Shown piece after piece: positions 3,682-49,644 of a DNA stretch of 64,000 nt. Positions within the stretch are counted from its first letter, which is position 1. Each line of letters begins with the position of its first letter. The stretch is from Microbacterium sp. VKM Ac-2923 (GTDB lineage: Bacteria; Actinomycetota; Actinomycetes; Actinomycetales; Microbacteriaceae): assembly GCF_022815605.1 (NCBI RefSeq), contig NZ_JALGRP010000005.1, positions 1 through 64,000 of the forward strand, in the 5' to 3' direction. The position numbers were made by a program, and so were the translations under genes. The notes below the pieces were generated by a model. The model was not told the origin of the DNA. It saw only the letters and a list, made by a program, of their open reading frames with translations, and made no database searches.

Positions 3682-3720
3682 TCGGACGCCGACCGGCCGC
3701 GGCCGGTCGACACGGCACGA

Positions 3721-3769
3721 ACGACGAGAGCGCCGCCACGGACAGCATCCGGGGCGGCGCTCTCGTCGT
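3721..3769 (+). terminator. Terminator of transglycosylase-like gene 1
   Basis: Exact 17-bp inverted repeat ACGACGAGAGCGCCGCC / GGCGGCGCTCTCGTCGT with a 15-nt loop and T-rich flank (GTTGTGG), 39 nt after the stop codon. Confidence 0.8.
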
Positions 3770-3817
3770 TGTGGACGCCGGGTGGGGGCGGTACCGCGGC
3801 GGGCGATCGACCCTTCG

Positions 3818-3953
3818 ACACACGGCACGTCTCGACACACGGCACGTCTCGGCACACGGCACGTCTCGACACACGGCACGTCTCGGCACACGGCACGTCT
3901 CGGCACACGGCGGGTCGCGGCACACGGCGGGTCTCGGCGCACGGCGCGTCGGG
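3818..3953. repeat. Eight tandem copies of a 17-bp repeat
   Basis: The unit is (A/G)CACACGGCACGTCTCG. Copies begin at 3818, 3835, 3852, 3869, 3886, 3903, 3920 and 3937. The first five differ only at the first base; the last three drift (GGGTCGCG, GGGTCTCG, GCGTCGGG). Because 17 is not a multiple of 3, all six frames are open and encode 17-residue repeats, so the ORFs here are artefacts. The array lies in the 346-bp gap between two convergent genes, which otherwise holds only the terminator. Confidence 0.9.
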
Positions 3954-4027
3954 TGACCGGCAGGACGCGCGTGCCGACCTCGAACTCGGCGTGGCGGTCC
4001 CGACGCTCCCGCGCGGCTTCCCGAGGA

Positions 4028-5734
4028 TCAGGCGCCGTTGCGACGGGCAATCATGCCGGCGAAAAGGGCGTGGGAGAGCGGAGCGAGCGAGACGACCGAG
4101 AGAATGGTGCCGAGCACCGCCTGCTCGGCCTGGAGCAGCACTCCCCCGATGAGCAGCGCCGCGAACAGCACCGACGACACGACTCGGCGGATCATCCGCT
4201 CGAGATCGCGCAACCGGCGCTCGATGCGCGGCGTCTCGACCGACAGGGAGCCCTCCTCCAACCGGGAGATGAGGTTGTCGGCGCGACGGGGCAGTCGCGC
4301 GGTCACGGCCGCGACGGACCCGATCTCGCGCACGAGCGCCTGAGCGGTGTTGCCGCTCTCTTCGCGGATCAGTCGCTGGGCGTAGGGCTCGACGGCATCC
4401 CAGATGTTGAAGGCGGGGTCGAGGGCACTGCACATCCCGCTCGTGAGCGACATCGCGCGGACGATGAGGAGGAAGTTCTCGGGCAGCTGGAACGGCAGTG
4501 CGCGCACCACGTCGCCGAACTCGATGGCGAAGGCGCGGAACTCGCGCGGGTCGACCTCCTGCAACTCTGCGAAGCCCATCCCGCCGAAGCGCGAGAACAG
4601 CTGCGTCATCGCCCGTTCCAGCTGGATCGTGTCGGCCGAGGGCAACAGCACACCCACGTCGCGGATGCCGTCGACCAGCCCCTTGCCGTCGCGCGAGGCC
4701 GCGGCGATCAGCACGCGGCGCAGACCCCGGCGCAGGCCGGGAGGAACGTCGCCCATCATGCCGAAGTCGATGAAGGTGAAGCGCCACGCCGGTGTCCCGG
4801 CATCCGGGGAACCGTCGGGACGTGCCAGGGGTGTGACGAAGACGTTGCCGGGGTGGGGATCGGCGTGGAAGAAGCCGTCGTCGAAGAGCTGGTCGAACAT
4901 CACGGCGGCGAAGCGCGCGGCGACCTCGGACGGATCGATGCCTGCGGCGCGTAGCGCGTCGACGTCGTTGATCTTGATGGCGCTGACGTCTTCAAGCGTC
5001 AGCACGCGGCGGGTCGTTCGCTCCCACACGACGTCGGGGACGGCGACCCCGCCCTCTCCCCCGAATTCGACGGCGAACCGCTCCGAATTCGCGGCCTCGT
5101 GAAGGTAGTCGATCTCCTCCAGGCTCGTGACGGCGAACTCCTCGACGAGCGAGGGCATGTCCACACGGTCGCGGACGAGGGCGACCTTGCTCAGCCACAC
5201 GCCCACCTTGCGGAGGGCACGCAGATCCACCTCGACGATGCGATCGATGTCGGGGCGCTGGATCTTCAGGACGACCGCGCGCAGCCCGGTCTCCTCGGCC
5301 AACTCATCGGCGAGCACGGCGCGGTGCGCCTGCCCCAGGGAGGCCGCGGCGAGGGGCCGGTCGTCGACGCTCGCGAAGGCCCGCTCCAGCGGCATCCCGA
5401 GTTCTTGCTCGGCGCGGGCGCGCATCTGGGCGAACGGGACCGCGGGCACCTCGTCCTGCAGACCCTCGAGCTCTTTGGTGATCACCGGGGGTAGCACGTC
5501 GAGGCGCGACGACATGAATTGCCCGACCTTGATCATGAGGCCGCCGAGGTCGACGGCGAGCACGTGGAAGCGGCGGGCGATCCGCTGCAGCCGCCGGGTG
5601 CGGCCCCGGGCGGAGATCCACCCGAGGCCGAACCGCGGCAGGAACAACTCGTACCACCAGGCCTGCACGAGGTAGCGCGCCGCGAAGCGCGTGATCCGCC
5701 GGTAACGGGCCTTCATGAGGGCGTCGTCGGTCAT
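4028..5734 (-). CDS. ABC1/UbiB (AarF) family atypical kinase
   Basis: 568 residues. The family marks are present in order: KVGQ (about residue 69, the KxGQ motif), the alanine-rich nucleotide loop LAAASLGQAH (about 129), VVLKIQRP with the conserved Lys (about 155), FFHADPHPGN (catalytic loop, about 293) and FIDFGMMG (metal-binding DFG-like, about 325). Two hydrophobic segments near the C-terminus (about 505-550) suggest a membrane anchor. Family members act as small-molecule kinases or ATPases in quinone or lipid metabolism; the substrate here is unknown. The AGGAGA ribosome site is good. It lies 50 bp downstream of the padR gene on the same strand, probably in one operon. Confidence 0.92.
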   Translation of the reverse strand: MTDDALMKARYRRITRFAARYLVQAWWYELFLPRFGLGWISARGRTRRLQRIARRFHVLAVDLGGLMIKVGQFMSSRLDVLPPVITKELEGLQDEVPAVPFAQMRARAEQELGMPLERAFASVDDRPLAAASLGQAHRAVLADELAEETGLRAVVLKIQRPDIDRIVEVDLRALRKVGVWLSKVALVRDRVDMPSLVEEFAVTSLEEIDYLHEAANSERFAVEFGGEGGVAVPDVVWERTTRRVLTLEDVSAIKINDVDALRAAGIDPSEVAARFAAVMFDQLFDDGFFHADPHPGNVFVTPLARPDGSPDAGTPAWRFTFIDFGMMGDVPPGLRRGLRRVLIAAASRDGKGLVDGIRDVGVLLPSADTIQLERAMTQLFSRFGGMGFAELQEVDPREFRAFAIEFGDVVRALPFQLPENFLLIVRAMSLTSGMCSALDPAFNIWDAVEPYAQRLIREESGNTAQALVREIGSVAAVTARLPRRADNLISRLEEGSLSVETPRIERRLRDLERMIRRVVSSVLFAALLIGGVLLQAEQAVLGTILSVVSLAPLSHALFAGMIARRNGA

Positions 5735-38409: not shown

Positions 38410-38496
38410 ATCGTCGTCCTCTCGCGTAGTCGATGGGGGTTCCGCGCGATCGACCCTACGCACCACGTCCGACATCGACCGGCGGGGTTGACGCCC

Positions 38497-38895
38497 TCAG
38501 TCCACGTCGCCGTCCACGTAGACCCACCGGCCGCCGCGGCGGACGAACCGGCTGCGCTCGTGCAGCTCCCCGTCGATCCCGTGCTGGCGCCAGGCCGCGC
38601 GGAACGACACGACTCCCGCATCGCCGTCCTCCTCAGCCCCGTCGATCACCAGACCACGCCACGTCGTCCCGTCGTCGACGACGATCTCGTCGGGCCGGGT
38701 CCTCGGATGCCACGATCGCAGCAGGTGGGCGGCGTCACCCACGACGAAGGCGGTGTATCGCGAACGCATCAGTCGTTCAGCACTGGGGGCGGGCACTCCC
38801 TCGAGGATCGGGCCGCAGCAGTGGCCGAACGCTCCGCCCCCGCATGGGCACGTCGCGTGCGGGGAGGGACGGGCGGATGCCAGGCCGAAGGACAT
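38497..38895 (-). CDS. YchJ/UPF0225 family protein
   Basis: 132 residues. The N-terminal SEC-C-like zinc motif CPCGGGAFGHCCGP is followed by the YchJ core (AERLMRSRYTAFVVGDAAHL, then SWHPRTRP and a C-terminal beta sheet). Function unknown. TAGAGT lies 6 nt before the ATG, so it is probably leaderless. Confidence 0.9.
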   Translation of the reverse strand: MSFGLASARPSPHATCPCGGGAFGHCCGPILEGVPAPSAERLMRSRYTAFVVGDAAHLLRSWHPRTRPDEIVVDDGTTWRGLVIDGAEEDGDAGVVSFRAAWRQHGIDGELHERSRFVRRGGRWVYVDGDVD

Positions 38896-38918
38896 TGCGC
38901 CACTCTAGGACGGGCAGA

Positions 38919-39464
38919 TTAGGGCAGATCCCGAACGTGCAGGAGGGAGTGGAGCCTCAGGCGCCGCCGGAGAGTTGGTCGTTGGAGGGCATCGACCACG
39001 ACCGACGCCCCGGCCCACGACGCGCCGCTCAGCTCGACGAGCCGGTGACACGCCTCCATCTGCGCTCCGGTATCGACCCAGTCGTCGACGAAGAGCACCC
39101 GGTCCCCCGACCGCAGAAGCCCCCGTCGCACGCCGAGGCGCAGGTGCCGGTCGCGGTAGTCCGGTCCCGTTGTCGTCTCCCACCACGCGTCGCTGTCGAC
39201 GGGGCGCGACGGATCCTTGCGGACCTCGGCGAAACCGACGCCGAGGGCATGGGCCACCAGAACCCCGAGCAGGCTGCCCCGCGACGACGGCCCCATTACG
39301 ACCGTCGGCGCGTCGCCGGCGAAGGGCGCTGCGAGGCTTGGACCGATCCGATCGATGATCGCCGGATCACGCCACCACCCGGTGACGTCCGCGCTGAGCG
39401 TCGGGTCGGTTCGGTCGCTGAGCCACCGAAAGTTCTCGCGCAGACGCTCACGAAGATCGGACAC
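38919..39464 (-). CDS. Phosphoribosyltransferase-fold protein
   Basis: 181 residues. The PRPP-binding motif VLFVDDWVDTGAQM (about 118-131) and an upstream TVVMGPSSRGSLLG loop are typical of type I phosphoribosyltransferases. The purine or other base specificity is unclear. It starts at a GTG with GACAAT about 5 nt upstream. It is the last chromosomal gene before the integrated element and points away from it. Confidence 0.82.
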   Translation of the reverse strand: MSDLRERLRENFRWLSDRTDPTLSADVTGWWRDPAIIDRIGPSLAAPFAGDAPTVVMGPSSRGSLLGVLVAHALGVGFAEVRKDPSRPVDSDAWWETTTGPDYRDRHLRLGVRRGLLRSGDRVLFVDDWVDTGAQMEACHRLVELSGASWAGASVVVDALQRPTLRRRLRLHSLLHVRDLP

Positions 39465-39586
39465 GCTCCATTGTCGTCACGGTCGCGGCGCACATCCGCC
39501 ACGCCGACCGATCTCACCCGGCATTCCTCGGACGTGGCGCACCCGAGCGGGAGCGCCGCCGGAGCGCGCGTGACAGGATCGCATCC

Positions 39587-39688
39587 GTGACCGACCGCAT
39601 CATGCTCCTCGATACCGCTTCGGTATACTTCACCTATGGCACCTACTCGCGTCGTCGGCTATGTTCGGCTCTCTCGGGAGAGCGCTGA
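39587..39688 (+). pseudogene. Stranded 5' end of the exonuclease gene (target of integration)
   Basis: From GTG 39587 the frame reads VTDRIMLLDTASVYFTYGTY and ends at TGA 39686. The first 15 residues match the LLLDTASLYF start of the exonuclease at 48712; the rest comes from the element. CAGGAT lies 7 nt before the GTG, so the chromosomal gene's own leaderless promoter probably remains here. This is the left remnant created by insertion. Confidence 0.75.
39608..39618 (+). other. attL core (CTCGATACCGC)
   Basis: The exact 11-mer CTCGATACCGC recurs at 48754-48764. Both copies sit in the same place of the same codon context (Leu-Asp-Thr-Ala) of the exonuclease gene. Similarity continues to the right (TATACTTC versus TTTACTTC). 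It lies 18 bp before the recombinase ATG. Confidence 0.8.
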
Positions 39689-41162
39689 CTCGACCTCAGT
39701 CGCCCGCCAACGCCAAATCATTGAGGCCCACGCCAAGGGCCGGGGATGGGAGCTTGTCGACACAATTGACGATGTCGACGTCAGCGCATCCAAGCGACGC
39801 CTTGACCGTCCGGGGCTCACTCGCGTCCGTGCCCTCATCGCGGGGGGTAAGGCGGAGGCGGTTCTCGTCTGGCGCCTCGACCGCCTAGCCCGCTCGGTCG
39901 TCGACTTCGGCACCCTCCTCGACGACGGGCTCAACGTAGTTTCGTGCACCGAGCCCCTCGATACGACCACAGCGATGGGCCGCGCCATGGCCGAGGTGCT
40001 CCAGGTATTCGCGGCGCTGGAATCGCGCACAATCGGCGACCGGCTCCGCTCGACAATCGCCTACCGCGTAGGCCAAGGCGACCGCTGGCGGGGCGGACCG
40101 ACCCCGTACGGCTACAAGTCAGTGCCCCACCCCTCAGGGGACGGTAAAACGCTCGCCATCGACGCCACTGAGGCGGCCTACGTCCGCCAGGCGGCGGAGA
40201 TTGTGCTCTCGGGCGGCTCCCTGTACAAGGCAATGACAACTCTGACGTCGAACGGATCGACCCCTCGGCGGGCGACAGCTTGGTCGCTGTCAAGCCTGCG
40301 CGTTGTACTTACGGGTGACTCGGTCCTCGGGCGCCAATCTCGTCACGGCGCGCCTCTGCGCGACGACACCGGAGTCATCGCGACACCCTGGGAGCCCATC
40401 CTCACCGTTTCGGACGCTGAGCGCCTCCGTGCCGTGCTCCAAGCCCGACCTCTTGCGACGACACGCCGCAAGGCTTCCCGGCTCCTGTCGGGGCTCCTGA
40501 CGTGCGAGTCCTGTGGGAGCCGCCTCCGTGTCAACTCTCGGCGCGCGCAAGGGGCACAGGTCGAGTCGTATGGATGCCGAGCCAATGGCGACGGCAAGGT
40601 CTGTCCGCGCCCTGCGAGCATCAACGCCGATCAGGTCGAGGCGTTCCTAGTGGGCGAGTTTCTATCGGTCGCTGGGCGGCTCACGGTTGTTGAGAGGCGC
40701 GCCGTCGTCCGCGACGTCATCGGATTGGCCGAGGTGGAGGAGGCAATCCGCCACACTACCGACGCCATGCGTGAGCCGGGTGCGGACATCCCCGCGCTCG
40801 TCGAACGCCTAAGCGCTCTCACCGGATCGCGAAACGAGCTCGCGGCGCGGCCTGTCGAACCTGTCATCGAGACCGTCGAGACGGGCGAGACCTACGGCGA
40901 GCGGTGGGAGCGGTCTGACACTAACGAACGCCGCGCGGCGCTGGAAAGTGTGCTCATGGGCCCCGTCCCCGTTGTCGCAATCGGGCGGGGTTACAGGCGG
41001 GTCGATGCTGACCGAGTATTGGCGCCGTGGCCCTGGCTCGACGAATATGCCGCACAGTACGTCGACCCCGGCTGGACTGACGCGCGACCGCTCGTCGCGC
41101 CCTGGGCGCCGCTGGACCCCTCTGGCGTGGGCCCTGAAATCGACCCGGACTGGTCCGGCTAA
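39636..41162 (+). CDS. Large serine recombinase (integrase)
   Basis: 508 residues. The N-terminal resolvase domain carries the nucleophile Ser in GYVRLSRESADSTSVARQRQ, then VDVSASKRRLDRPGL and VWRLDRLARS. The recombinase domain (about 160-280: YGYKSVPHPSGD to RRATAWSLSSLRVVLT) and a zinc-ribbon domain (LTCESCGSRLRV ... YGCRANGDGKVCPRP, about 290-330) follow, then a coiled-coil region. The layout is that of phage serine integrases, which join attP and attB without a long homologous core. TATACT lies 6 nt before the ATG, next to attL, so the transcript is probably leaderless. Confidence 0.95.
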   Translation: MAPTRVVGYVRLSRESADSTSVARQRQIIEAHAKGRGWELVDTIDDVDVSASKRRLDRPGLTRVRALIAGGKAEAVLVWRLDRLARSVVDFGTLLDDGLNVVSCTEPLDTTTAMGRAMAEVLQVFAALESRTIGDRLRSTIAYRVGQGDRWRGGPTPYGYKSVPHPSGDGKTLAIDATEAAYVRQAAEIVLSGGSLYKAMTTLTSNGSTPRRATAWSLSSLRVVLTGDSVLGRQSRHGAPLRDDTGVIATPWEPILTVSDAERLRAVLQARPLATTRRKASRLLSGLLTCESCGSRLRVNSRRAQGAQVESYGCRANGDGKVCPRPASINADQVEAFLVGEFLSVAGRLTVVERRAVVRDVIGLAEVEEAIRHTTDAMREPGADIPALVERLSALTGSRNELAARPVEPVIETVETGETYGERWERSDTNERRAALESVLMGPVPVVAIGRGYRRVDADRVLAPWPWLDEYAAQYVDPGWTDARPLVAPWAPLDPSGVGPEIDPDWSG

Positions 41163-41658
41163 CCACCTACGGCGCCGCGCGGGTCCGGTGCGCCGCATCG
41201 CTGAGGCACGCTACACCCCGGCGCCAGGCCCCCTAGCGTGGTGACGCGCGTTATGCACCTAGTCTGCACCGACCGATTCGTCGACCAAATAACCACACCG
41301 CACGCCGCGTTGTACACCTACTGACACCCCAAGGGACGATGCTGAAAAGGCATCGTCCCTGGCATCGTCCCTGACCAGCGCCACTCCTACAACCGCGGAA
41401 TCATGCGGTGAAATCGCCCACAGGGACGCTGGTCGATGCCCCCACACCACTAACCTCTAATGAGGTGAGTCGAAACGGTCACCGCCGCCCCGTGTCGTCG
41501 ACCTAAGTGCACAACGTGCCATTGCGCGCGTCGCCGAGACCGCATGAGGTGCCCCGCGTGGCCCCCTCCGCCTCGGCCCCACTCGCGGGCATCCCGGCGG
41601 TATATCCAAGGGTAAAGAGGCTCACACACTTCTCGCCCCGGAAAGGTGCAACTTCGCA
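41163..41658. other. Gene-poor stretch of the element
   Basis: 496 bp with no frame I can support. The two short minus-strand ORFs here have no ribosome site and unlikely composition. The stretch contains a hairpin with a tandem repeat (41333-41372) and otherwise nothing recognisable. It may hold regulatory signals for the rightward gene block. Confidence 0.5.
41333..41372 (+). terminator. Hairpin with duplicated 3' arm
   Basis: GGGACGATGC (41333-41342) pairs with GCATCGTCCC (41350-41359). The 12-mer GGCATCGTCCCT then occurs twice in tandem (41349-41360 and 41361-41372), so the left arm can pair with either copy. It probably ends recombinase transcription. Confidence 0.55.
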
Positions 41659-41835
41659 ATGACGCACACTCTCACGTGTCACGCCTGCGGTGCCACGTTC
41701 ACCGCCTCCCGTCGGCACGCCCTCACATGCTCCAATGCATGCCGCCAGCGCCGCCAGGCCCGACGCCGCGACGCCCTCATCGCCGACCTCTCCGCATTCG
41801 CGCGCGAGGCCGCCGCGGTCAAGCTAGCCGCCTGA
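41659..41835 (+). CDS. Small zinc-finger protein of the element
   Basis: 58 residues. LTCHACGATFTAS and LTCSNACRQRRQARRRDAL give a CxxC...CxxxC finger with a basic helix, then an Ala-rich helix. It is similar in style to small phage zinc-finger proteins; function unknown. GGAAAGG precedes the ATG by about 11 nt, and codon use is normal for the window. A long ORF in another frame over the same bases is a shadow. Confidence 0.7.
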   Translation: MTHTLTCHACGATFTASRRHALTCSNACRQRRQARRRDALIADLSAFAREAAAVKLAA

Positions 41836-41962
41836 CCCGCCCTCACCTTCCCCCGTCGCCACCGTGCGACGCGTTCCGCCCGTCCGCCTCGCCGCCGTTC
41901 GCGACGGCATCGAGGGACAGCGGGCCACGCCCTGACCGGTCGCTCCGGCACGGCACACCTTC

Positions 41963-42008
41963 GACGCCCCCGGGCGTGGCCCCAAGTGGGCGCCACACCG
42001 GGGGCGTC
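41963..42008 (+). terminator. Hairpin before the coat gene
   Basis: GACGCCCCCGG-gc-GTGGC pairs with GCCAC-a-CCGGGGGCGTC. It lies about 130 bp after the zinc-finger gene and about 120 bp before the coat gene. The rest of 41836-42131 shows no gene. Confidence 0.65.
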
Positions 42009-42131
42009 GCCGTTTCACCCGACGACGCCGCCAAGGTGCGGCCCGTCACCGACCGCTAGACGCGGTTCTCCACCTCATCCACTCCAGGCGCACACCCTCG
42101 CGCCGCACATCTCCTAGGAGAACCCGCCACC

Positions 42132-43103
42132 ATGGCAAACATCTTCCAAACCGACCCCACCGCCGTCGGCGACGTCGCCACTCTCCTCGCGCTCGCAAGT
42201 CTGCGCCTCGGCAACGTCGCTCAGCGTTTCGATTCGTCCGACTTCATCGCGGGCCGTGGCGACACCGTCTACCTGACAGTCTCAGGCGCCCTGGCCGCTC
42301 ACGGGCGAGCGCTCGACGACGTCACCAACGCCATCATCAGCGAACGACTGTCGGAACTGCGCGAGCCGGTGAAGCTCTCGACTCACGCCTACTCCAGCGT
42401 CGTCCTTTCCGACGCCGAGCTCAGCCTCGACATCAAGGACTTCGGCAAGCAAGTACTCGACCCTCAGGCCACCGCCGTCGCGGCCAAGATCGAGCGCGCA
42501 CTCGCCGACGTCATCGACGGTATTGACGTCGCCCCCGATGTGACGTTCATGCGCTCCAACCCGGTCTCGTTCTTCACCCAGGGCCGCGCCGCGCTCCGCG
42601 CCAAGGGCATCGACGTCGCGGGCGAGCCTCTCGTCGCGCTCGTCGGATCGGCGCTCTACGACATCCTCCTCGACTCCGGCGCGCTCGACGCGGACAAGCT
42701 CGGCGGCGACGCCTCGGCCCTCACCAAGGGCGCCGTGGGCAGTCTCCGCGGCTTCGAGGTCGTCGAGGCCACCTCGGGAGACCCGGGGGACGTCGTGTTC
42801 ATGACGAAGCGCGGCTCGCTCTACCTCGCCAACCGCGCCCCCGAGGTCCCGACCGACGTGACCGGCAACAAATCCACGCACGAGGGATTCGAGCTCCGCG
42901 CCATCCAGGACTATGACGCCACCGTCACCGCTCAGCGGTCGGTCCTTTCGACCTTCGTGGGTGCGGGCATCCTCCCCGCCTACAAGGCCACCCGCACAGA
43001 GGATGTCGCCATCCAAGGCGAGGCGGACTTCGTCGCCGGTTCTGTGACGCTGTCCCCCATCCCCGGGGGCGCGACCGTCAAGGCCAACATCAGCAACGTC
43101 TAA
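42132..43103 (+). CDS. Phage major capsid (P22 coat-type) protein
   Basis: 323 residues. The protein starts MANIFQTDPTAVGDVATLLA and has VTFMRSNPVSFFTQGRAALR, GLRGFEVVE-like and FELRAIQDYDATVTAQRSVL blocks, the pattern of P22-coat-like HK97-fold major capsid proteins of actinophages. CTAGGAGAA precedes the ATG. The C-terminal part (FVAGSVTLSPIPGGATVKAN) may be a short Ig-like or decorating tail. No scaffold or protease gene lies before it. Confidence 0.8.
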   Translation: MANIFQTDPTAVGDVATLLALASLRLGNVAQRFDSSDFIAGRGDTVYLTVSGALAAHGRALDDVTNAIISERLSELREPVKLSTHAYSSVVLSDAELSLDIKDFGKQVLDPQATAVAAKIERALADVIDGIDVAPDVTFMRSNPVSFFTQGRAALRAKGIDVAGEPLVALVGSALYDILLDSGALDADKLGGDASALTKGAVGSLRGFEVVEATSGDPGDVVFMTKRGSLYLANRAPEVPTDVTGNKSTHEGFELRAIQDYDATVTAQRSVLSTFVGAGILPAYKATRTEDVAIQGEADFVAGSVTLSPIPGGATVKANISNV

Positions 43104-43135
43104 CCGACATACACCCGGCGCCACCAGCGCCACCG

Positions 43136-43170
43136 CGAGCCCGCCCGACCTCACCCCGGGCGGGCTCGCC
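43136..43170 (+). terminator. Terminator after the coat gene
   Basis: GCGAGCCCGCCCG pairs exactly with CGGGCGGGCTCGC (13 bp), 32 nt past the stop. Confidence 0.75.
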
Positions 43171-43193
43171 CCGCACACGACAGGACACCTCGC

Positions 43194-43586
43194 ATGACCG
43201 ACACCACGCTCCCGCTCACCGACCCGACCGGCACTCGCCGCGAGGCGTTTCTCGCTCTCGTGCGGGACGAGGACATCATGCACAGCCTCGACAACGTCCC
43301 CGATGACACCCTCGTCAACATCGGTCTTGGGCTCGCTGTCGAGGCGTACGAGAACCGATGGGAGGGAACCCGAGGTCTCGCCGTCACCCGCTTCGGCGTC
43401 CCCTCCGACGTCATCGAGCTCCTCGCCGCCGCCGCCCTTGCGGCGCTGTTGCCGACCATGGGCGCCGTCATCCTCGCACGCCCGAACGAGGCCACGCTCG
43501 CCAACCTCCGCGCATGGCTGGCATCGCACGGTTTCCGCGCCACGCCGACACGCCGCTCGGGAAGCGTCAAGGGACGCCGCCGATGA
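43194..43586 (+). CDS. Phage protein in the tail-assembly-chaperone position
   Basis: 130 residues, not recognised from sequence alone. An acidic N-terminal half (DTTLPLTDPTGTRREAFLAL) is followed by a hydrophobic middle (ELLAAAALAALLPTMGAVIL) and a basic end. It and the next ORF precede the tape measure gene, where tail phages carry the chaperone pair. The next ORF is in the -1 frame and overlaps the stop (ATGA). I saw no convincing slippery heptamer, so reinitiation rather than frameshifting is more likely. Confidence 0.65.
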   Translation: MTDTTLPLTDPTGTRREAFLALVRDEDIMHSLDNVPDDTLVNIGLGLAVEAYENRWEGTRGLAVTRFGVPSDVIELLAAAALAALLPTMGAVILARPNEATLANLRAWLASHGFRATPTRRSGSVKGRRR

Positions 43587-43852
43587 ACGCCTTACACCGC
43601 GTCACCGCCGACGACCTCGACGCCATCGCGCCTCTCGTTCCTCGTCGCGAACGCCACCGCCTCGCCCATCACCTCAACCGGCGCATCCACTACGCGATCG
43701 ACTCGCCCCGGCGTGCCCCTTCGGGGTACCGGCGCCCCTACTCGCTCCGCCAATGGGAGGCCCTGCCCGAGGTCAAACGGGTCGAGGTGCTCACCGGCCA
43801 CCTCGTGGCTCAATGGCTGAAGGACGGCCACGCACGGCACCGCGAGGACTGA
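43583..43852 (+). CDS. Small phage protein, overlaps the preceding gene
   Basis: 89 residues, mostly helical and basic (RHRLAHHLNRRIHYAIDSPR, then SLRQWEALPEVKRVEVLTGH). It could be the second chaperone-type product. The ATG overlaps the previous TGA, and the same frame is open upstream to 43358. Function is inferred from position only. Confidence 0.6.
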   Translation: MNALHRVTADDLDAIAPLVPRRERHRLAHHLNRRIHYAIDSPRRAPSGYRRPYSLRQWEALPEVKRVEVLTGHLVAQWLKDGHARHRED

Positions 43853-43989
43853 CAGGCCCCAAGGCATCCACCCGCGTGTCATCGCCGACAACCCTCCGTG
43901 CAGGGTGGGCGTGTAAACGCGCATTCCCCCGAGCCCCTCCCCTCACAATGAGCCTCCGCTCGCCTGATACGCCCATAAGGAGGCGCCGA

Positions 43990-44265
43990 ATGAATACTCC
44001 TGCTCCTGCCCCCTCGCCTCCCGACCGCGCGCTCCTCCTCGACCCGCTCGTCATAGTCGAGGACGGCGACGACGGTTCCTCCCTAACGCCTCTGGCCTCC
44101 CTCGGGCACACGAGGGCGACCGCGACACCGGACATTCCTCGGGCCGCCGGTTCCCCCTGGCCGTTTGCTGGACGGGGGCGACTTCTGGACCCGCTCGTCA
44201 CCGTTCGGGACGGTTCACGCGGCCCCACCCTCGTCCCACTCGCCGGGCTCGCCCTCGTCCGCTAG
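43990..44265 (+). CDS. Small element protein with an internal duplication
   Basis: 91 residues, not recognised. Two copies of a repeat are visible: LLLDPLVIVEDGDDGSSLTP (about 16-35) and RLLDPLVTVRDGSRGPTLVP (about 65-84), each followed by LA-L. AAGGAGG sits 7 nt before the ATG, so it is well expressed. It could be a small structural or decoration protein. A hairpin follows. Confidence 0.65.
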   Translation: MNTPAPAPSPPDRALLLDPLVIVEDGDDGSSLTPLASLGHTRATATPDIPRAAGSPWPFAGRGRLLDPLVTVRDGSRGPTLVPLAGLALVR

Positions 44266-44276
44266 TTCTCCTCACC

Positions 44277-44318
44277 AAGGCCCCCGCTCCCGTCATTTGG
44301 CGCGCGAGCGGGGGCCTT
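44277..44318 (+). terminator. Terminator before the tape measure gene
   Basis: AAGGCCCCCGCTC pairs with GAGCGGGGGCCTT (13 bp), followed by CTGCGTG. Confidence 0.75.
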
Positions 44319-44371
44319 CTGCGTGCACCGGTCCCGACGGGTCGCCGCGCCCGACCCCGCCTAGGAGCCCC

Positions 44372-46633
44372 ATGTCCGCAAGCGTCATTGGACACGCCAC
44401 CCTCGATATCGTCCCCTCGTCCAAGGGTTTCGGCTTCGCCCTCTCGGGCGACCTCGCACCCATCGGGGACGCGGGGGGCAAGAAGCTGGCCGACGGCGTC
44501 GGAGGTTTGCTGAAACGTGCCGTCTTGCCCCTTGCTGTCGCCGCGGGTGTCGCCGCGGGTGTCGCCGCGGTCGGCGGGTTCGTCGGCTCATCTGTCAAAG
44601 CGGCGGGCTCTCTGGAGCAATCCCTAAGCGCCATCGGCGCCGTGTTCAAGGGCAACGCCGGGCAAATGCACGCGTGGGCTCGCGGCGCGGCCATGGACGT
44701 CGGCCTTACCGCCAACGAGTTCAATGAGCTCGGCACCCTCCTCGGCTCGCAACTCAAGAACGCCGGGACGGCCATGTCCGACCTCGCGCCGCGCACCAAT
44801 GAGCTCATCGGCCTCGGTGCCGACCTGGCCTCCATGTTCGGCGGCACCTCGAAAGAGGCCGTCGAGGCAATCTCCTCCGCCCTTAAGGGCGAGCGCGACC
44901 CCATCGAGCGCTACGGCGTGAGCCTCAAGCAAGCGACCATCGACGCCAAGGCCGCCGAGCTCGGGTTCGTCAAGGTCGGCGGCGCACTCTCCGCCGAGGC
45001 CACCACCGCCGCCACGCTCGCGCTCATCATGGAGCAAACCGCCGACGCACACGGCAACTTCGCCCGCGAGTCCGCCACCTACGAGGGCACCATGCAACGC
45101 CTCTCGGCGTCCTGGGGCAACATCACCGCGACCATCGGCCAAGGGTTCCTCCCCATCGCCACCGCGGCGCGCACCGTCCTCCTCGGCATGATGCCCGGCG
45201 TGCAAAGCGCCGCCGACTGGTTCGCCGGTCTCGCGCCCGCCGTCCAAGGCGTCACCGAGCTCCTCCTCTTCGGCAACTACGACGCGGGCCTCTTCACAGC
45301 GCTCGGAGGCATCACCGAGGACTCCGCCATCGTCGACATCCTGCTCGACGTGCGCGAGGCCATCCTCGCCCTGTCCACCTCCGCCGACCCCGCCCCGCTC
45401 GCCGACCTCGCCGTCGGCATCATCACGAGCGGCGCGGGAGCTCTCGCCGGTCTCCTCACGAGCCTCGCGACGATCCTGCCGGGCATCATCGCCACCGTCG
45501 TCGCCATGGCGCCCTCAATCCTCTCCGCCGCCACCGGGGCATTCACCGCGCTCGTCACCGCGCTCCTCACGGTCCTCCCGGCGCTCCTCGCCGCCGTCCT
45601 CGGGATGCTCCCGGCGATCTACACCGCCATCCTGAGCATGGGCGTGCTGTACCTGGACGCGGGCGTCCAGCTATTCGGCGGCCTCGTCACGGCGCTCGTG
45701 GGGGTGTTCCCTCCGTGGGTCGCCGCGCTCGTCGAGCTCTACCCGGCCCTCGCGGAGGCCATCCTCGGCATGCTCCCCAGCGTCGTCGAGGCGGGAATCT
45801 CGTTGTTCAACGGGCTCCTGCAAGCCCTCATCGAGCTCCAACCCGTGCTCCTCACGACGGTCTTGGGGCTCCTCCCGGTGCTGATCACGACCCTCGTGAG
45901 CATGCTCCCCGGCCTCGTCACCGCGGGCATCGAGCTCTTCCTCGGGCTCGTCGTGGCGATCCTCCGGGCGCTCCCTGCGACCATCACCACGCTCGTCGGC
46001 ATCCTGCCCGCGCTCGTCTCGACGCTCATGGGCATAGTCCCCACCCTCATCGCCACGGGCATCGAGCTCTTCCTCTCCCTCGTCAAGGCCGTCGTCACCG
46101 TCGTCCCTGAGCTCGTCGGCACCATCGTCACCAAGGTCGTCCCGACCGTTGCGGGCGCCGCCCTGGACGCTGTCCCGCGACTCCTCCAAGCGGGCGCCGA
46201 CCTCATCGCGGGACTCGTGCAAGGACTATGGGACGCCGCGGGACAGGTCAGCGCCATGCTCATCGACCTCATCGGCGGCGCCGTCGACGGCTTCCTCGAC
46301 TTCCTCGGCATCCACTCGCCCTCGCGCCTGTTCCGCTCATTCGGCGCGCACATCGGCGACGACCTCGCGCTGAGCATCGGTCACATGGAGGACGACGTCA
46401 CCGCCGATGCGCTCGCCCTCGCCGCCTCGGACTACGAGGCCGCCGAGGTCGCCGTCGGCGCGGGCTGGGCCGCGGGCACCGCGGCTGCGCTCGCCGAGCT
46501 CCGCAACGGCAACGCCGCACACCACGCCACGACGTTCGCGGACTACTCCACGTCACGCGAGGACAAGCAAGCCAAGCTCCAGCGCGCCCATCTCAACCTA
46601 GAGCGCATGATCGGCACCATGCCCGGGCTGTAG
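44372..46633 (+). CDS. Phage tail tape measure protein
   Basis: 753 residues. An Ala/Gly-rich start with a hydrophobic segment (about 50-70) precedes the TMP core (AAGSLEQSLSAIGAVFKGNA ... GLTANEFNELGTLLGSQLKN ... ERYGVSLKQATIDAKAAELG). A long region (about 350-600) is built of hydrophobic Leu/Val/Ala-rich repeats, roughly 20-40 residues each (for example GIELFLGLVVAILRALPATI). The C-terminus has GGAVDGFLDFLGIHSPSRLF, typical of tape measure ends. CTAGGAG precedes the ATG. It is short for siphophage TMPs, implying a short tail of about 110 nm at 1.5 angstrom per residue, if made. Confidence 0.88.
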   Translation: MSASVIGHATLDIVPSSKGFGFALSGDLAPIGDAGGKKLADGVGGLLKRAVLPLAVAAGVAAGVAAVGGFVGSSVKAAGSLEQSLSAIGAVFKGNAGQMHAWARGAAMDVGLTANEFNELGTLLGSQLKNAGTAMSDLAPRTNELIGLGADLASMFGGTSKEAVEAISSALKGERDPIERYGVSLKQATIDAKAAELGFVKVGGALSAEATTAATLALIMEQTADAHGNFARESATYEGTMQRLSASWGNITATIGQGFLPIATAARTVLLGMMPGVQSAADWFAGLAPAVQGVTELLLFGNYDAGLFTALGGITEDSAIVDILLDVREAILALSTSADPAPLADLAVGIITSGAGALAGLLTSLATILPGIIATVVAMAPSILSAATGAFTALVTALLTVLPALLAAVLGMLPAIYTAILSMGVLYLDAGVQLFGGLVTALVGVFPPWVAALVELYPALAEAILGMLPSVVEAGISLFNGLLQALIELQPVLLTTVLGLLPVLITTLVSMLPGLVTAGIELFLGLVVAILRALPATITTLVGILPALVSTLMGIVPTLIATGIELFLSLVKAVVTVVPELVGTIVTKVVPTVAGAALDAVPRLLQAGADLIAGLVQGLWDAAGQVSAMLIDLIGGAVDGFLDFLGIHSPSRLFRSFGAHIGDDLALSIGHMEDDVTADALALAASDYEAAEVAVGAGWAAGTAAALAELRNGNAAHHATTFADYSTSREDKQAKLQRAHLNLERMIGTMPGL

Positions 46634-46635
46634 GG

Positions 46636-46995
46636 CTACCGTCGCTTACCGCCCCCGGGTGACCCACCGTGCACGATCCCGGGGCGGCCCGTGACGTAGA
46701 TGCCCCGGTCTCGCCCCCGCGGGGGCCGGTCGTCGACCTTGCGCCGCCTGTCGTTCGCGACGCCGAAAGCCTCGTCAAGCTCGCTCGGTTCCTCGGTCTC
46801 CGGCGCACGCCTCGGCGTGAAGAGACCGGCGCCTCGCCTCGCCTCGAACCGCTCAGCCCGCGCCCGCTCGACGGGCGCACTCGTCCCCGGCTCCTCGCAC
46901 CGCGCGCCGCGAGCATCCGTGTGGATCGACATGCGCCCGTCGGGCCTGAGCGCGTGCGACTCGTGGCACATGAGGCACTCGCGGAACCTGAGCAT
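46636..46995 (-). CDS. Small Cys-containing element protein (minus strand)
   Basis: 119 residues, not recognised. FRECLMCHESHALRPDGRMS and GARCEEPGTS could bind a metal with Cys/His. The rest is Arg/Glu-rich and probably disordered. TAGCGT lies 6 nt before the ATG, so it would be a leaderless transcript against the structural block. It might be a regulator or a late gene of the element. Confidence 0.5.
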   Translation of the reverse strand: MLRFRECLMCHESHALRPDGRMSIHTDARGARCEEPGTSAPVERARAERFEARRGAGLFTPRRAPETEEPSELDEAFGVANDRRRKVDDRPPRGRDRGIYVTGRPGIVHGGSPGGGKRR

Positions 46996-47056
46996 ATGCC
47001 GACGCTACCGGCTCCCCCGGGCGTCGTGTAAACGCATGTGCCCGATTGAGCCGTCA

Positions 47057-47082
47057 GGGGTGGGGGGTGACTCCCCCACCCC
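47057..47082. terminator. GC-rich hairpin
   Basis: GGGGTGGGGG pairs with CCCCCACCCC around a 6-nt loop, between the minus-strand gene and the next plus-strand gene. Confidence 0.55.
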
Positions 47083-47190
47083 CCCTCCCTTCCCTCCCGG
47101 TGCGGCATAGCGTCCGCCTGTGGCTACGTATCGCTCGTTTGTTTTTCGTAGACCCCGTCTGTTTCCTCAACCCCGCCCATGGAGGCGATC

Positions 47191-47331
47191 ATGCAACGAT
47201 GCACCGGCCCCTGTGGGCGCCTCATGCTCGTAACCGACTTCCCGCGCCGCGCCTCCGGCCAGTGCTGGGACTGTCACACCCGACGCCAGCCCGACCACCT
47301 GGGCTACGACCTCAACTCCGACCGGCGATAG
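47191..47331 (+). CDS. Small zinc-finger protein of the element
   Basis: 46 residues. MQRCTGPCGRLMLVTDFPRR and SGQCWDCHTRRQP make a CxxxC...CxxC finger. The frame is short and not found by length-based callers. GGAGG lies 5 nt before the ATG, and third positions are GC-rich. It resembles small phage zinc-ribbon proteins next to head-tail genes; function unknown. Confidence 0.6.
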   Translation: MQRCTGPCGRLMLVTDFPRRASGQCWDCHTRRQPDHLGYDLNSDRR

Positions 47332-47359
47332 CTCGCCCGGGAGAGATTGGACCCCCCGA

Positions 47360-47764
47360 ATGCCTAGCCCGCTCCCCCCTGCCCTGTCCAAGCTGGAGAG
47401 CCGCCTCGGACTCCCCGAGGGCTCGCTCGTCGACGCCGACAAGGCACGCGCCGAGGACGCCATCGACGACGCCACGACTCTCGTTCTCGCCGAGGTCGCC
47501 GCTACCACCGCTGACCGCTGGGGCGTTGCGGCGCCCGCCGTTGTGGAGCTCATCGTCCTCAAGGCCGCACGCCGCGAGTACGAAAACCCCCGCGGATTCG
47601 CTCAAGAGACCCGTGGCGAGCACTCCGCCACGCTCGCTGAGTCCTCCGGCGTCTACCTCACGGGCCGCGAGGTGGCGCAAGTACGCCGCGCCGCGACGGG
47701 GCGCCGCGGTTTCGTCGGCTCCATTCGCACCCCCTCGGCCTACGAGACGACGGCGACGGCATGA
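47360..47764 (+). CDS. Probable head-tail adaptor/connector protein
   Basis: 134 residues. VVELIVLKAARREYENPRGF, then QETRGEHSATLAESSGVYLT and the end RRGFVGSIRTPSAYE resemble the helical gp6-like adaptors of actinophages. It lies after the tape measure gene, which is unlike the usual order (adaptors before tape measure). GGAGAG lies about 13 nt before the ATG. Overlaps the next gene (ATGA). Confidence 0.65.
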   Translation: MPSPLPPALSKLESRLGLPEGSLVDADKARAEDAIDDATTLVLAEVAATTADRWGVAAPAVVELIVLKAARREYENPRGFAQETRGEHSATLAESSGVYLTGREVAQVRRAATGRRGFVGSIRTPSAYETTATA

Positions 47765-48084
47765 CCCCAAGGGCCTACATCGTCGGCACCTTTATCACCC
47801 CCGACGGCAAGACACGCGCTACCGGCACCATCATCGTCGAGCCGCACGGGCCCACCTTCCTCCCCGACACCACCCCACCGCTTATTGTTCTCCCGCGCCC
47901 CATCCGCGTCGAGCTCGTCGACGGCGCGTTCCCCCTCCTCGGTCTCGTCCCCGCGCGCTACCGCGTCAGGTTCCGCCTCCAAGGCGCCGCCATGCCCGCT
48001 CGCGACATCGAGCTCACCGCCGCGCACACCGAGGTCAACCCCCTCGACCTCGCCCTCGCAACCAACGCACCTCGCACCGCATGA
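47761..48084 (+). CDS. Phage protein with beta-rich predicted fold, unknown
   Basis: 107 residues. GTFITPDGKTRATGTIIVEP and PARYRVRFRLQGAAMPARDI suggest a beta-sandwich as in small phage structural or carbohydrate-binding-like proteins. It is translationally coupled to the adaptor-like gene (ATGA overlap). No family assigned. Confidence 0.6.
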   Translation: MTPRAYIVGTFITPDGKTRATGTIIVEPHGPTFLPDTTPPLIVLPRPIRVELVDGAFPLLGLVPARYRVRFRLQGAAMPARDIELTAAHTEVNPLDLALATNAPRTA

Positions 48085-48086
48085 CC

Positions 48087-48126
48087 AACGCCCCCGGCCC
48101 GCTCTCACGAGCGCGCCGGGGGCGTT
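48087..48126 (+). terminator. Terminator of the element's right block
   Basis: AACGCCCCCGGC pairs with GCCGGGGGCGTT (12 bp), then TCGTCGTTTCC, 2 nt after the stop. Confidence 0.8.
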
Positions 48127-48145
48127 TCGTCGTTTCCGAGTCCCG

Positions 48146-48688
48146 CTACGCCGCGAGCTCGTGCTCCACGCGCACCGTTCCCTCATCCGTGGTGCGCCCG
48201 CCCCCGAACCGCTCCTCGGCCACGCCCGCGATGGCCGCCAGGTCGCTCGCCGACAGCACCGTCAGCGGGAAGGACGACGGCGCGCCGCTGTGAACGTCCA
48301 ACGCTCGCACGAGCCGCGACCACCGTGCGACGGCATCGTCGAGCGCATTGGCCCGCGGCTCAGGAGCCTCAACCCCTATGACCACGCGAGAACGGAGCTC
48401 AAAGACACCGTCAACACCGCCCGCCGCGACGAAATCGTCGACCACATCGGCTAGCGCGCGGCGCCACGCGGCCACAAGAGACGGGCACCCGTCCTCTCGC
48501 CCCCGCATCCGGCCCGCCCAGGTGTAGGCCGCCGCCTCCATGTTGCGCCATCCGAAACGCGAGACCGCTAGCTCAAACTCATGCACTTTCGTAACCCCAT
48601 TCAAGTGCCGTCCATCGGCGCCAAGACTGAACGTAGCATCGGTTTTTTCCCGATCAGACCACGTAAAGTGACTCACGCAAGTCGTCAC
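48146..48688 (-). CDS. Hypothetical protein at the right end of the element
   Basis: 180 residues if started at the GTG at 48688; an internal GTG (VHEFELAVSRFG) is also possible. Not recognised. It is mixed and soluble: HEFELAVSRFGWRNMEAAAY, later AWRRALADVVDDFVAAGGVD and a C-terminal helix ending AAIAGVAEERFG. The start region is less GC-rich than the rest. It faces away from the exonuclease gene and is 23 bp from its ATG, so both promoters overlap attR-proximal DNA. It could be the element's regulator. Confidence 0.55.
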   Translation of the reverse strand: MTTCVSHFTWSDREKTDATFSLGADGRHLNGVTKVHEFELAVSRFGWRNMEAAAYTWAGRMRGREDGCPSLVAAWRRALADVVDDFVAAGGVDGVFELRSRVVIGVEAPEPRANALDDAVARWSRLVRALDVHSGAPSSFPLTVLSASDLAAIAGVAEERFGGGRTTDEGTVRVEHELAA

Positions 48689-48711
48689 AGTTGGCGTGGG
48701 ACACTAGGTGA

Positions 48712-49644
48712 ATGAGCCCCAGGGATACGACCCGACCCGAAAAGTTGCTTTTACTCGATACCGCGTCCCTTTACTTCCGCGCGTTCTACGGCGTTCCCGA
48801 CAAGGTGAAGGCGCCTGACGGCACGTCGGTCAACGCGGTGCGGGGTCTGCTCGACATGATCGCCAAACTCGTCACCACCTACGAACCGACGCGGCTGGTG
48901 GCGTGTTGGGACGACGACTGGCGCCCCGCGTGGCGCGTCGACCTGTTGCCGAGCTACAAGGCCCACCGCGTCGTGGAAGCGATCCCGGCCGGCACCGATG
49001 TCGAGGAGGTCCCCGACCCGCTCGAGGCGCAGATCCCCGTCATCCGCGAGGTGCTCGCCGCGCTCGGCATCCCCGTCGTGGGGGCGGCCGAGCACGAGGC
49101 CGACGATGTGATCGGCACCCTCGCCACGCGCGCCGACGCGCCTGTCGACATCGTCACCGGTGACCGCGACCTCTTCCAATTGGTCGACGACGCCCGCGGA
49201 ATCCGGGTCGTCTACACGGCGCGAGGGATGAGCAACCTCGAGATCGTCGACGATGCAACCGTCGTGTCCAAGTACGGCGTGCACGCCGAGCAGTACGCCG
49301 ACTTCGCCGCGCTGCGCGGGGATCCCTCCGACGGGCTCCCCGGCGTCCCGGGCATCGGGGAGAAGTCGGCGGCGACGCTTCTCGGCGCGCACGGGTCGCT
49401 GGACGGCATCCGCTCCGCCGTCGCGGACTCCACCGGGGGCACGCCGGCCCAGCGCGCGAAAATCGCCGGGGCCTCCGACTACCTCGACGTCGCCCCCACC
49501 GTCGTCCGCGTCGCCCGCGACCTCACCCTCGCACCCTTCGACGACCGTCTGGGCTCGGTCGATCAGGCGGCCGCGCTCGCCCTCGCCGAGACGTGGAACC
49601 TGGGCACGGCGATGACCAGGGCCCTCGCCGCGGTTTCGCGCTGA
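48712..49644 (+). CDS. 5'-3' exonuclease (PolA N-terminal-type), 5' end supplied by the element
   Basis: 310 residues. The FEN-like metal residues are present: LLLDTASLYFRAFYG (first Asp), ACWDDDWRPAWR, EHEADDVIGTLA, DIVTGDRDLFQLV and GLPGVPGIGEKSA (helix-hairpin-helix). It degrades 5' flaps and RNA primers. The first 14 codons (MSPRDTTRPEKLLL) lie left of the attR core and so come from the element. The core codes for LDT, and from there on the gene is chromosomal. The frame is intact, so the host gene is restored with a new start and promoter (GACACT lies 6 nt before the ATG). Confidence 0.9.
   Translation: MSPRDTTRPEKLLLLDTASLYFRAFYGVPDKVKAPDGTSVNAVRGLLDMIAKLVTTYEPTRLVACWDDDWRPAWRVDLLPSYKAHRVVEAIPAGTDVEEVPDPLEAQIPVIREVLAALGIPVVGAAEHEADDVIGTLATRADAPVDIVTGDRDLFQLVDDARGIRVVYTARGMSNLEIVDDATVVSKYGVHAEQYADFAALRGDPSDGLPGVPGIGEKSAATLLGAHGSLDGIRSAVADSTGGTPAQRAKIAGASDYLDVAPTVVRVARDLTLAPFDDRLGSVDQAAALALAETWNLGTAMTRALAAVSR
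48754..48764 (+). other. attR core (CTCGATACCGC)
   Basis: Second copy of the 11-mer found at 39608-39618. It codes for part of LDTA in the exonuclease, at residue 15 onward. Confidence 0.8.

Follow-up and report, generated by a model that had tools for sequence, protein, structure and literature searches.

How does an exonuclease gene keep an open reading frame when some 9 kb of other DNA lies among its first codons, and what kind of element is it that lies there? The locus is in Microbacterium sp. VKM Ac-2923, in the first 64,000 nucleotides of contig NZ_JALGRP010000005.1 (the whole stretch analyzed, hereafter the window; G000:C33 in our genome set, G000 being the genome). An insert of 9,146 bp (window 39608-48753) occupies the 5' end of a 5'-3' exonuclease gene that we found in 276 of 295 genomes of the genus (E ≤ 1e-60). 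A site-specific-looking insertion that rebuilds the exonuclease is well supported, and we consider it likely, judging from the genes that it carries, that the element is an integrated cos-type island resembling phage satellites.

Junctions of the insert and the uninterrupted site

The features that define the two ends of the insert are as follows.

39574-39579, plus strand: native exonuclease −10-like hexamer CAGGAT, 7 nt 5' of the old GTG and now before the integrase gene
39587-39618, plus strand: stranded native exonuclease start (GTG; VTDRIMLLDT), identical to G257 and G081 up to CTCGA
39608-39618, plus strand: attL core CTCGATACCGC, a repeat and the putative crossover region
48700-48705, plus strand: candidate supplied −10-like box GACACT (A at position 2, T at position 6), 6 nt 5' of the new ATG
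48712-48753, plus strand: 14 replacement codons MSPRDTTRPEKLLL from the element, in frame, with a new ATG
48754-48764, plus strand: attR core, the second copy of the repeat
48712-49644, plus strand: rebuilt 5'-3' exonuclease, 310 residues (PF02739, 2e-47; PF01367, 3.1e-18)

The 11-mer CTCGATACCGC occurs at both ends in the same codon frame, that of VTDRIMLLDTASVYF on the left and ...PEKLLLLDTASLYF on the right, and falls where the exonuclease codons first become highly conserved (LLDTASLYF). Shuffling predicts 0.06 copies in the window; three were found, the third of which (29116, minus strand) has no evident link to the insert. The left reading frame starts at GTG 39587 and departs from the exonuclease after TACTTC, while codons 1 to 14 of the intact gene all lie left of the right repeat, the right end of the element giving the exonuclease its start codon and N-terminal codons in frame. 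These are the arrangements that a sequence-only reading of this DNA had described: an 11-mer at the same codon position of two starts, a short left frame that ends in the element, and a full exonuclease whose first 14 codons come from the element. Coordinates and frames were confirmed for each.

Two relatives in the genus set carry the gene uninterrupted: G257 and G081, whose exonucleases are 88% and 87% identical to that of the window. In the G257 locus (L172), window 38451-39631 aligns to 3712-4866 and window 48754-48902 to 4843-4991; the two alignments thus overlap by 24 bases, and the same pattern is seen in G081 (L173). G257 and the left junction of the window have in common the 43 bases GTGACAGGATCGCATCC-GTGACCGACCGCATCATGCTCCTCGA, after which G257 reads cACCGC and the window tACCGC; the native starts of both relatives match the left junction up to CTCGA. 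Because the left flank (a phosphoribosyltransferase-like gene on the minus strand in the window) and the exonuclease are contiguous in G257 and G081, and because their native start matches the left junction, we regard the 9,146-bp insertion as confirmed. The native start that had been predicted for an uninterrupted relative was therefore right, and the comparison supports the accompanying claim that the native start and promoter were displaced and element sequence put in their place.

Replacement of the exonuclease start and, probably, its promoter

Of 66 distinct native upstream sequences that fit the start pattern, 56 carry the motif [TC]ANNNT at a distance of 6 or 7 nt before the start codon; in control DNA its rate is 0.4% per position. 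Because of this spacing, the exonuclease is probably transcribed as a leaderless mRNA. At the left junction the motif is CAGGAT; at the right junction GACACT matches it less well. The element probably supplies the exonuclease with a new promoter. The integrase gene of the element begins at ATG 39636, 49 bp past the first base of the old start codon, and the displaced native −10-like box ends 56 nt ahead of that ATG; thus, two promoters may be exchanged here, rather than one replaced. It follows from the sequence that the host promoter now faces the integrase and element sequence faces the exonuclease, promoter activity being predicted in both cases.

We propose a single attP × attB event in which the integrase would recombine a circular form of the element into the core. 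The distance from the −10-like box of the GACACT-ATG segment to the integrase ATG would be about 76 nt in the circle; upon integration, the GACACT-ATG segment would pass to the exonuclease and the leaderless promoter of the exonuclease would pass to the integrase, so that one recombination would swap both promoters and rebuild the host gene. A search of phages for the 48-nt reconstructed attP of the exonuclease site gave nothing relevant; the four AZ-type Arthrobacter phages compared and the Microbacterium phage Zeta1847 have other, palindromic sequences 5' of int.

The sequence-only reading had called both the exchange and its target unusual. The exchange is a known strategy, described for IMEVchUSA3 in dusA and SXT in prfC (PMC8409611); an exonuclease target with start exchange, or an actinobacterial serine-integrase setting, was not found in our searches of the open-license literature. 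The dusA islands resemble the window element in their 5'-end insertion, new promoter, altered N-terminus, and restored frame, but differ in target and host phylum and in being SGI1-like elements mobilized by IncC plasmids (PMC8409611); in the window, it is the integrase gene that now directly follows the displaced host promoter. SXT/R391 integrative and conjugative elements in prfC are conjugative and ~100 kb long, whereas the window carries a 9-kb satellite-like island with a serine integrase. Our case, made at the level of sequence, is one of integration at a gene start in Actinobacteria that swaps the start and probably the promoter, with empty sites and a second independent example in metX (see below).

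We also read the exonuclease start in 96 genomes of the genus. Six of these were covered for at least 10 kb upstream, 43 for 4 kb, and 47 for 1.4 kb. Element-free strains with the same start had been named as evidence that would tell against the sequence-only reading. The exact MSPRDTTRPEKLLLLD start was in none of the other genomes read, but an EKLLLLD-type start is present in 9 of the 96, six of which (G009, G031, G073, G093, G221, and G259) have no second start copy in the DNA read. The EKLLLLD N-terminus is therefore not peculiar to elements; it is of a naturally occurring type, and the supplied copy was probably captured from another exonuclease gene.

At least four of the 96 genomes have two copies of the start: the window's, G007, G008, and G304 (the left copy of the window lies outside the 1.5 kb of locus L001 scanned for second copies, and was counted all the same). 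No second copy was found in 79 further named loci showing the exonuclease motif (80 were taken, L104 lacking the motif; some genomes overlap), and among the matches listed no further offset between exonuclease and start-motif positions was seen by eye in other genomes. Inserts at the codons used by the window element are present in at least two further species, a refinement of the sequence-only reading: G007 has an insert of 690 bp flanked by a 30-bp repeat with one mismatch, and G008 one of 804 bp flanked by a 21-bp repeat. The left junctions of all three inserts fall within the same 30 bp of the exonuclease gene, and the right ends of both small inserts give EKLLLLD starts. Each small insert holds one gene, of 183 residues on the minus strand in G007 and of 251 residues on the plus strand in G008, where the new exonuclease ATG overlaps the 3' end of that gene; neither contains an integrase. 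These inserts (L039 18294-18984 for G007; L044, minus strand, for G008) argue less strongly for a mobile element than the window does, whose own case rests on its integrase and flanks. The 251-residue G008 protein shows an RNSFAH motif by eye, with no Pfam match and a best PDB relative at E 0.17, and we do not claim it as a HEPN protein.

In G304 (L192, minus strand), the exonuclease is preceded, at a distance of 1,128 bp, by a stranded start. The intervening segment contains a phosphoribosyltransferase-like gene 67% identical to the flank gene of the window, with no second copy in the 5 kb read; for this reason the G304 case may be a rearrangement, and it is ambiguous between insertion and rearrangement. 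In G007 and G304, the DNA upstream of the exonuclease is similar to that found at insert-free alleles.

Genes of the element and related islands

Between its cores the element carries the following features.

39636-41162, plus strand: large serine integrase, 508 residues (PF00239, 1.3e-30; PF07508; PF13408; phrog_95 integrase, 5.1e-86)
41659-41835, plus strand: Cys-rich 58-residue protein, zinc-finger/HNH-like (phrog_1271, 4e-6)
42132-43103, plus strand: major capsid protein (MCP) homologue, 323 residues (phrog_283 major head protein, 5e-24)
43194-43586, plus strand: gp130, 130 residues, mostly helical in a low-confidence model; no PHROGs match
43583-43852, plus strand: gp87, capsid-module protein of 89 residues, 85% identical in G315; no PHROGs match
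44369-46633, plus strand: tail tape measure protein (TMP), 754 residues, against 753 in Zeta1847 (phrog_58, 2.5e-37)
47058-47114, plus strand: cos region, with core CCCGGTGCGGCAT/AGCGTC at 47096-47114; the Zeta1847 match ends at 47108
47191-47331, plus strand: Cys-rich 46-residue protein beside cos, 49% identical over 43 residues to phiMiGM15 and 56% over 41 residues to the G075 element
47360-47764, plus strand: head-tail adaptor Ad1, 134 residues (phrog_137, 1.5e-13), 63% identical to Zeta1847 and 78% to the IMG/VR phage L240
47761-48084, plus strand: gp107, 107 residues, 29% identical over 89 residues to the counterpart gene of the G075 element
48146-48688, minus strand: 180-residue protein divergent from the exonuclease, to which Pfam, PHROGs, and PADLOC scans assigned no family at the thresholds applied

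The last 51 bases of the linear Zeta1847 genome and window 47058-47108 are 88% identical, and the 19-mer CCCGGTGCGGCAT/AGCGTC, which spans the joined Zeta1847 ends, also occurs in the window element and in the G315 and G183 islands; in three of the five IMG/VR stretches that contain it, the exact 19-mer lies beside TerS/terminase genes. In two IMG/VR stretches, L242 and L243, the exact 19-mer is flanked by different sequence, common to the two, and none of the tested phage genes matches there. We compared ten Zeta1847 proteins: the small and large terminase subunits (TerS and TerL), portal, protease, scaffold, MCP, Ad1, major tail protein, TMP, and minor tail protein 15. The window element matched MCP, Ad1, and TMP (the last 57% identical over 746 aligned residues), the G315 and G183 islands matched MCP only, and the seven others had no match in the window, G315, or G183 elements (E ≤ 0.01). 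As a control, a G021 prophage region matches all ten beside a similar cos. The window element thus has a cos of the presumptive helper type together with an incomplete set of packaging and virion genes, in an order that differs from that of Zeta1847.

The islands of G315 (L055) and G183 (L056), about 9.4 and 8.6 kb by their junction sequences, follow the same order as the window element: integrase, MCP, gp130, and cos. After cos they carry a Type III restriction enzyme and methyltransferase or a Type ISP/IIG enzyme. Their junctions lie in a TadA/CpaF-family ATPase gene, and their integrases are 80% identical to each other and 31 to 32% identical to that of the window. The window MCP is 83% identical to that of G315, 37% to that of G183, and 33% to that of Zeta1847; a DNA block of the window (41580-43848, including the 58-residue gene) is 81% identical to G315; and, of the three capsid-module islands, gp87 was detected only in those of the window and G315. 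Between window and G315, ratios of nonsynonymous to synonymous substitution (dN/dS) are 0.26 for MCP, 0.29 for gp130, and 0.17 for gp87. The predicted structure of gp130 (mean pLDDT, 59.9) was not used further.

A fourth element, of 11.6 kb in G075 (L057/L251), carries an integrase, TMP, a DUF6338 gene, cos, and a TerS-like gene (phrog_1496, 3e-4), and matches Zeta1847 TMP and, at 5e-7, TerS; a 92-residue scaffold-like protein (E 0.018) is a lead only. It is inserted in the 5' end of metX (NCBIfam MetX) and flanked by the 17-bp repeat TGGACTGGCAGACCTCC. The left copy of the repeat retains the native ATG of metX, whereas the right copy starts with TTG and foreign upstream DNA; the start is ATG in all 16 genus relatives compared.

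The MCP has seven relatives besides the window in the genus set: the G315 and G183 islands, prophages in G021 and G173 (the latter by TerL), and G277, G091, and G086. TerL matches the G173 prophage (C11; L253/L255) as two segments (query 5-341 and 350-565), both in open frames of 602 residues.

Satellite, prophage remnant, or small phage

Could the insert instead be the deletion remnant of an ordinary EH- or AZ-type prophage, its capsid, tape measure, adaptor, and cos mere leftovers? We think this unlikely, though it is the alternative with most to be said for it: the homologues of its virion genes come from a single phage type, the gene order is unlike that of Zeta1847, some stretches lack a clear codon-phase signal, and a resident helper was not found in the island genomes. 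Against decay stand the int-MCP-gp130-cos order, which recurs in three species in elements of ~8.6, 9.1, and 9.4 kb whose integrases and targets differ, with gp87 in two of them; the dN/dS of 0.17 to 0.29 in the closest pair; gp130 and gp87, which have no PHROGs match; and the restriction-modification cargo beside cos. That the two starts arose by homologous or illegitimate recombination with a foreign EKLLLLD exonuclease allele, not by site-specific integration, strikes us as very improbable. Such an origin would suit the six EKLLLLD genomes in which no insert was detected, the resemblance of the right ends of the G007 and G304 inserts to DNA upstream of EKLLLLD alleles, and the possible rearrangement in G304 with its phosphoribosyltransferase-like gene between the starts, but in the window the integrase starts 17 nt from the left core and the flanks are colinear with the empty site, and the left junctions of the window, G007, and G008 coincide within 30 bp. 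We give least credence of all to a small self-sufficient temperate phage whose packaging and tail genes went unrecognized: capsid, adaptor, tape measure, and cos are there, but in the 9.15 kb of the element nothing matches the Zeta1847 terminase, portal, or major tail protein.

A satellite-like island is thus the best account, resting on anatomy and conservation, with packaging and mobility as its predicted consequences; compared with the sequence-only reading, the element can now be described as cos-bearing, carrying capsid and tape measure genes, and phage-satellite-like in its predicted nature. We read the elements of the window, G315, G183, and G075 as a family of cos-type phage satellites, not decayed prophages. 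Several observations weigh against this account. Scans of the four island genomes for TerL and cos showed no resident helper: TerL (E ≤ 1e-5) had no match in G315, G183, or G075 and one at 37% in G000, and the sole cos match in G000 is that of the island itself. Coassembly of the MCP with that of a helper is not obvious because it is only 33% identical to the Zeta1847 MCP. No replication or excision gene was recognized in the window element. In the genus search (E ≤ 0.01), 7 of 295 genomes matched gp130, three strongly (window, G315, and G183) and four at E 0.004 to 0.007; in a family set of 378 genomes there were two matches, the window and one at 9.5e-4, and none of the viral contigs encodes gp130. 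The dN/dS of more distant pairs (gp130 and MCP against G183, Ad1 against Zeta1847, TMP against Zeta1847 and G075) is 0.43 to 0.77 and says little either way. In G315 and G183 the target gene is left split, not rebuilt. Finally, the supplied promoter of the window is a weak match, and no classical σ70 pair was found at either junction.

If the satellite account holds, helper infection or induction would lead to excision of the island, and its cos would make it a substrate for packaging by the helper terminase; the capsid protein, adaptor, and tape measure of the island may be built into, or replace, parts of the helper virion, by analogy with Ccm in SaPIbov5. A broader proposal, which we put forward tentatively and hold somewhat short of even, is that small cos-type satellites of Microbacterium refit a helper phage by mixing and matching individual virion parts (capsid, tape measure, adaptor, and small terminase); that two of the four carry restriction-modification systems; and that two of the four enter gene starts, swapping host and integrase promoters in one recombination, so that the host gene would be kept and integrase expression would differ between circle and chromosome.

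Phage-inducible chromosomal islands (PICIs) in the strict sense have PICI regulators, replication genes, and a tyrosine integrase. The window element has a serine integrase and, among the genes scanned, no regulator or replication family except for weak matches of the 58-residue Cys-rich protein. Capsid-forming PICIs, as described, have their own portal, protease, and terminases (PMC10690885), and the window element has no match to those of Zeta1847; we assign it to neither class. SaPIbov5 belongs to the cos-type satellites, and its capsid homologue Ccm redirects the capsids of the helper (PMC8569155). Like it, the window element appears to be a cos-type chromosomal island with a phage capsid-protein homologue, a candidate for such redirection; it differs in its actinobacterial host and helper type, its serine integrase, and its own tape measure and adaptor. 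MulchRoom and MiniFlayer, compared here by their published description, are satellites of actinophages (from Streptomyces), as the window element is predicted to be, but they encode terminases, portal, and scaffold, as well as capsid (PMC10690885).

The EH phages (including Zeta1847) and AZ phages have integrase, capsid, adaptor, and tape measure genes homologous to those of the window element, and Zeta1847 has its cos in common with it; as complete phages of ~43 to 48 kb they may represent the helper type, not the class of the element. AZ and EH phages are described as sharing a serine integrase, with one exception, and the AZ phage Powerpuff was shown to be temperate (PMC8758107). Searches of the open-license literature for a Microbacterium satellite, a satellite with capsid and tape measure, an actinobacterial serine-integrase cos satellite, or an exonuclease attB gave no report of the element, by titles and the starts of abstracts. 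Our data point to an actinobacterial group of cos-type satellites with a capsid homologue and a full-length TMP, the latter unlike the satellites compared. If this is true, capsid and tail remodeling would be testable with isolated temperate AZ phages and predicted-temperate EH phages.

The window integrase is 51 to 53% identical to the best-listed phage integrases, all from Arthrobacter phages and several from cluster AZ. Relatives were found in seven of the 295 genus genomes besides that of the window (E ≤ 1e-40), with no exonuclease start in the 14 kb read around each; there were none in viral contigs, and no close relative on plasmids, all 774 records being below 60% identity. In four genomes (G303, G253, G172, and G276; loci L051-L054), integrases 38 to 40% identical to that of the window adjoin an MFS-transporter-like gene (by eye), which is preceded by a short frame resembling its own start, possibly another gene-rebuilding insertion.

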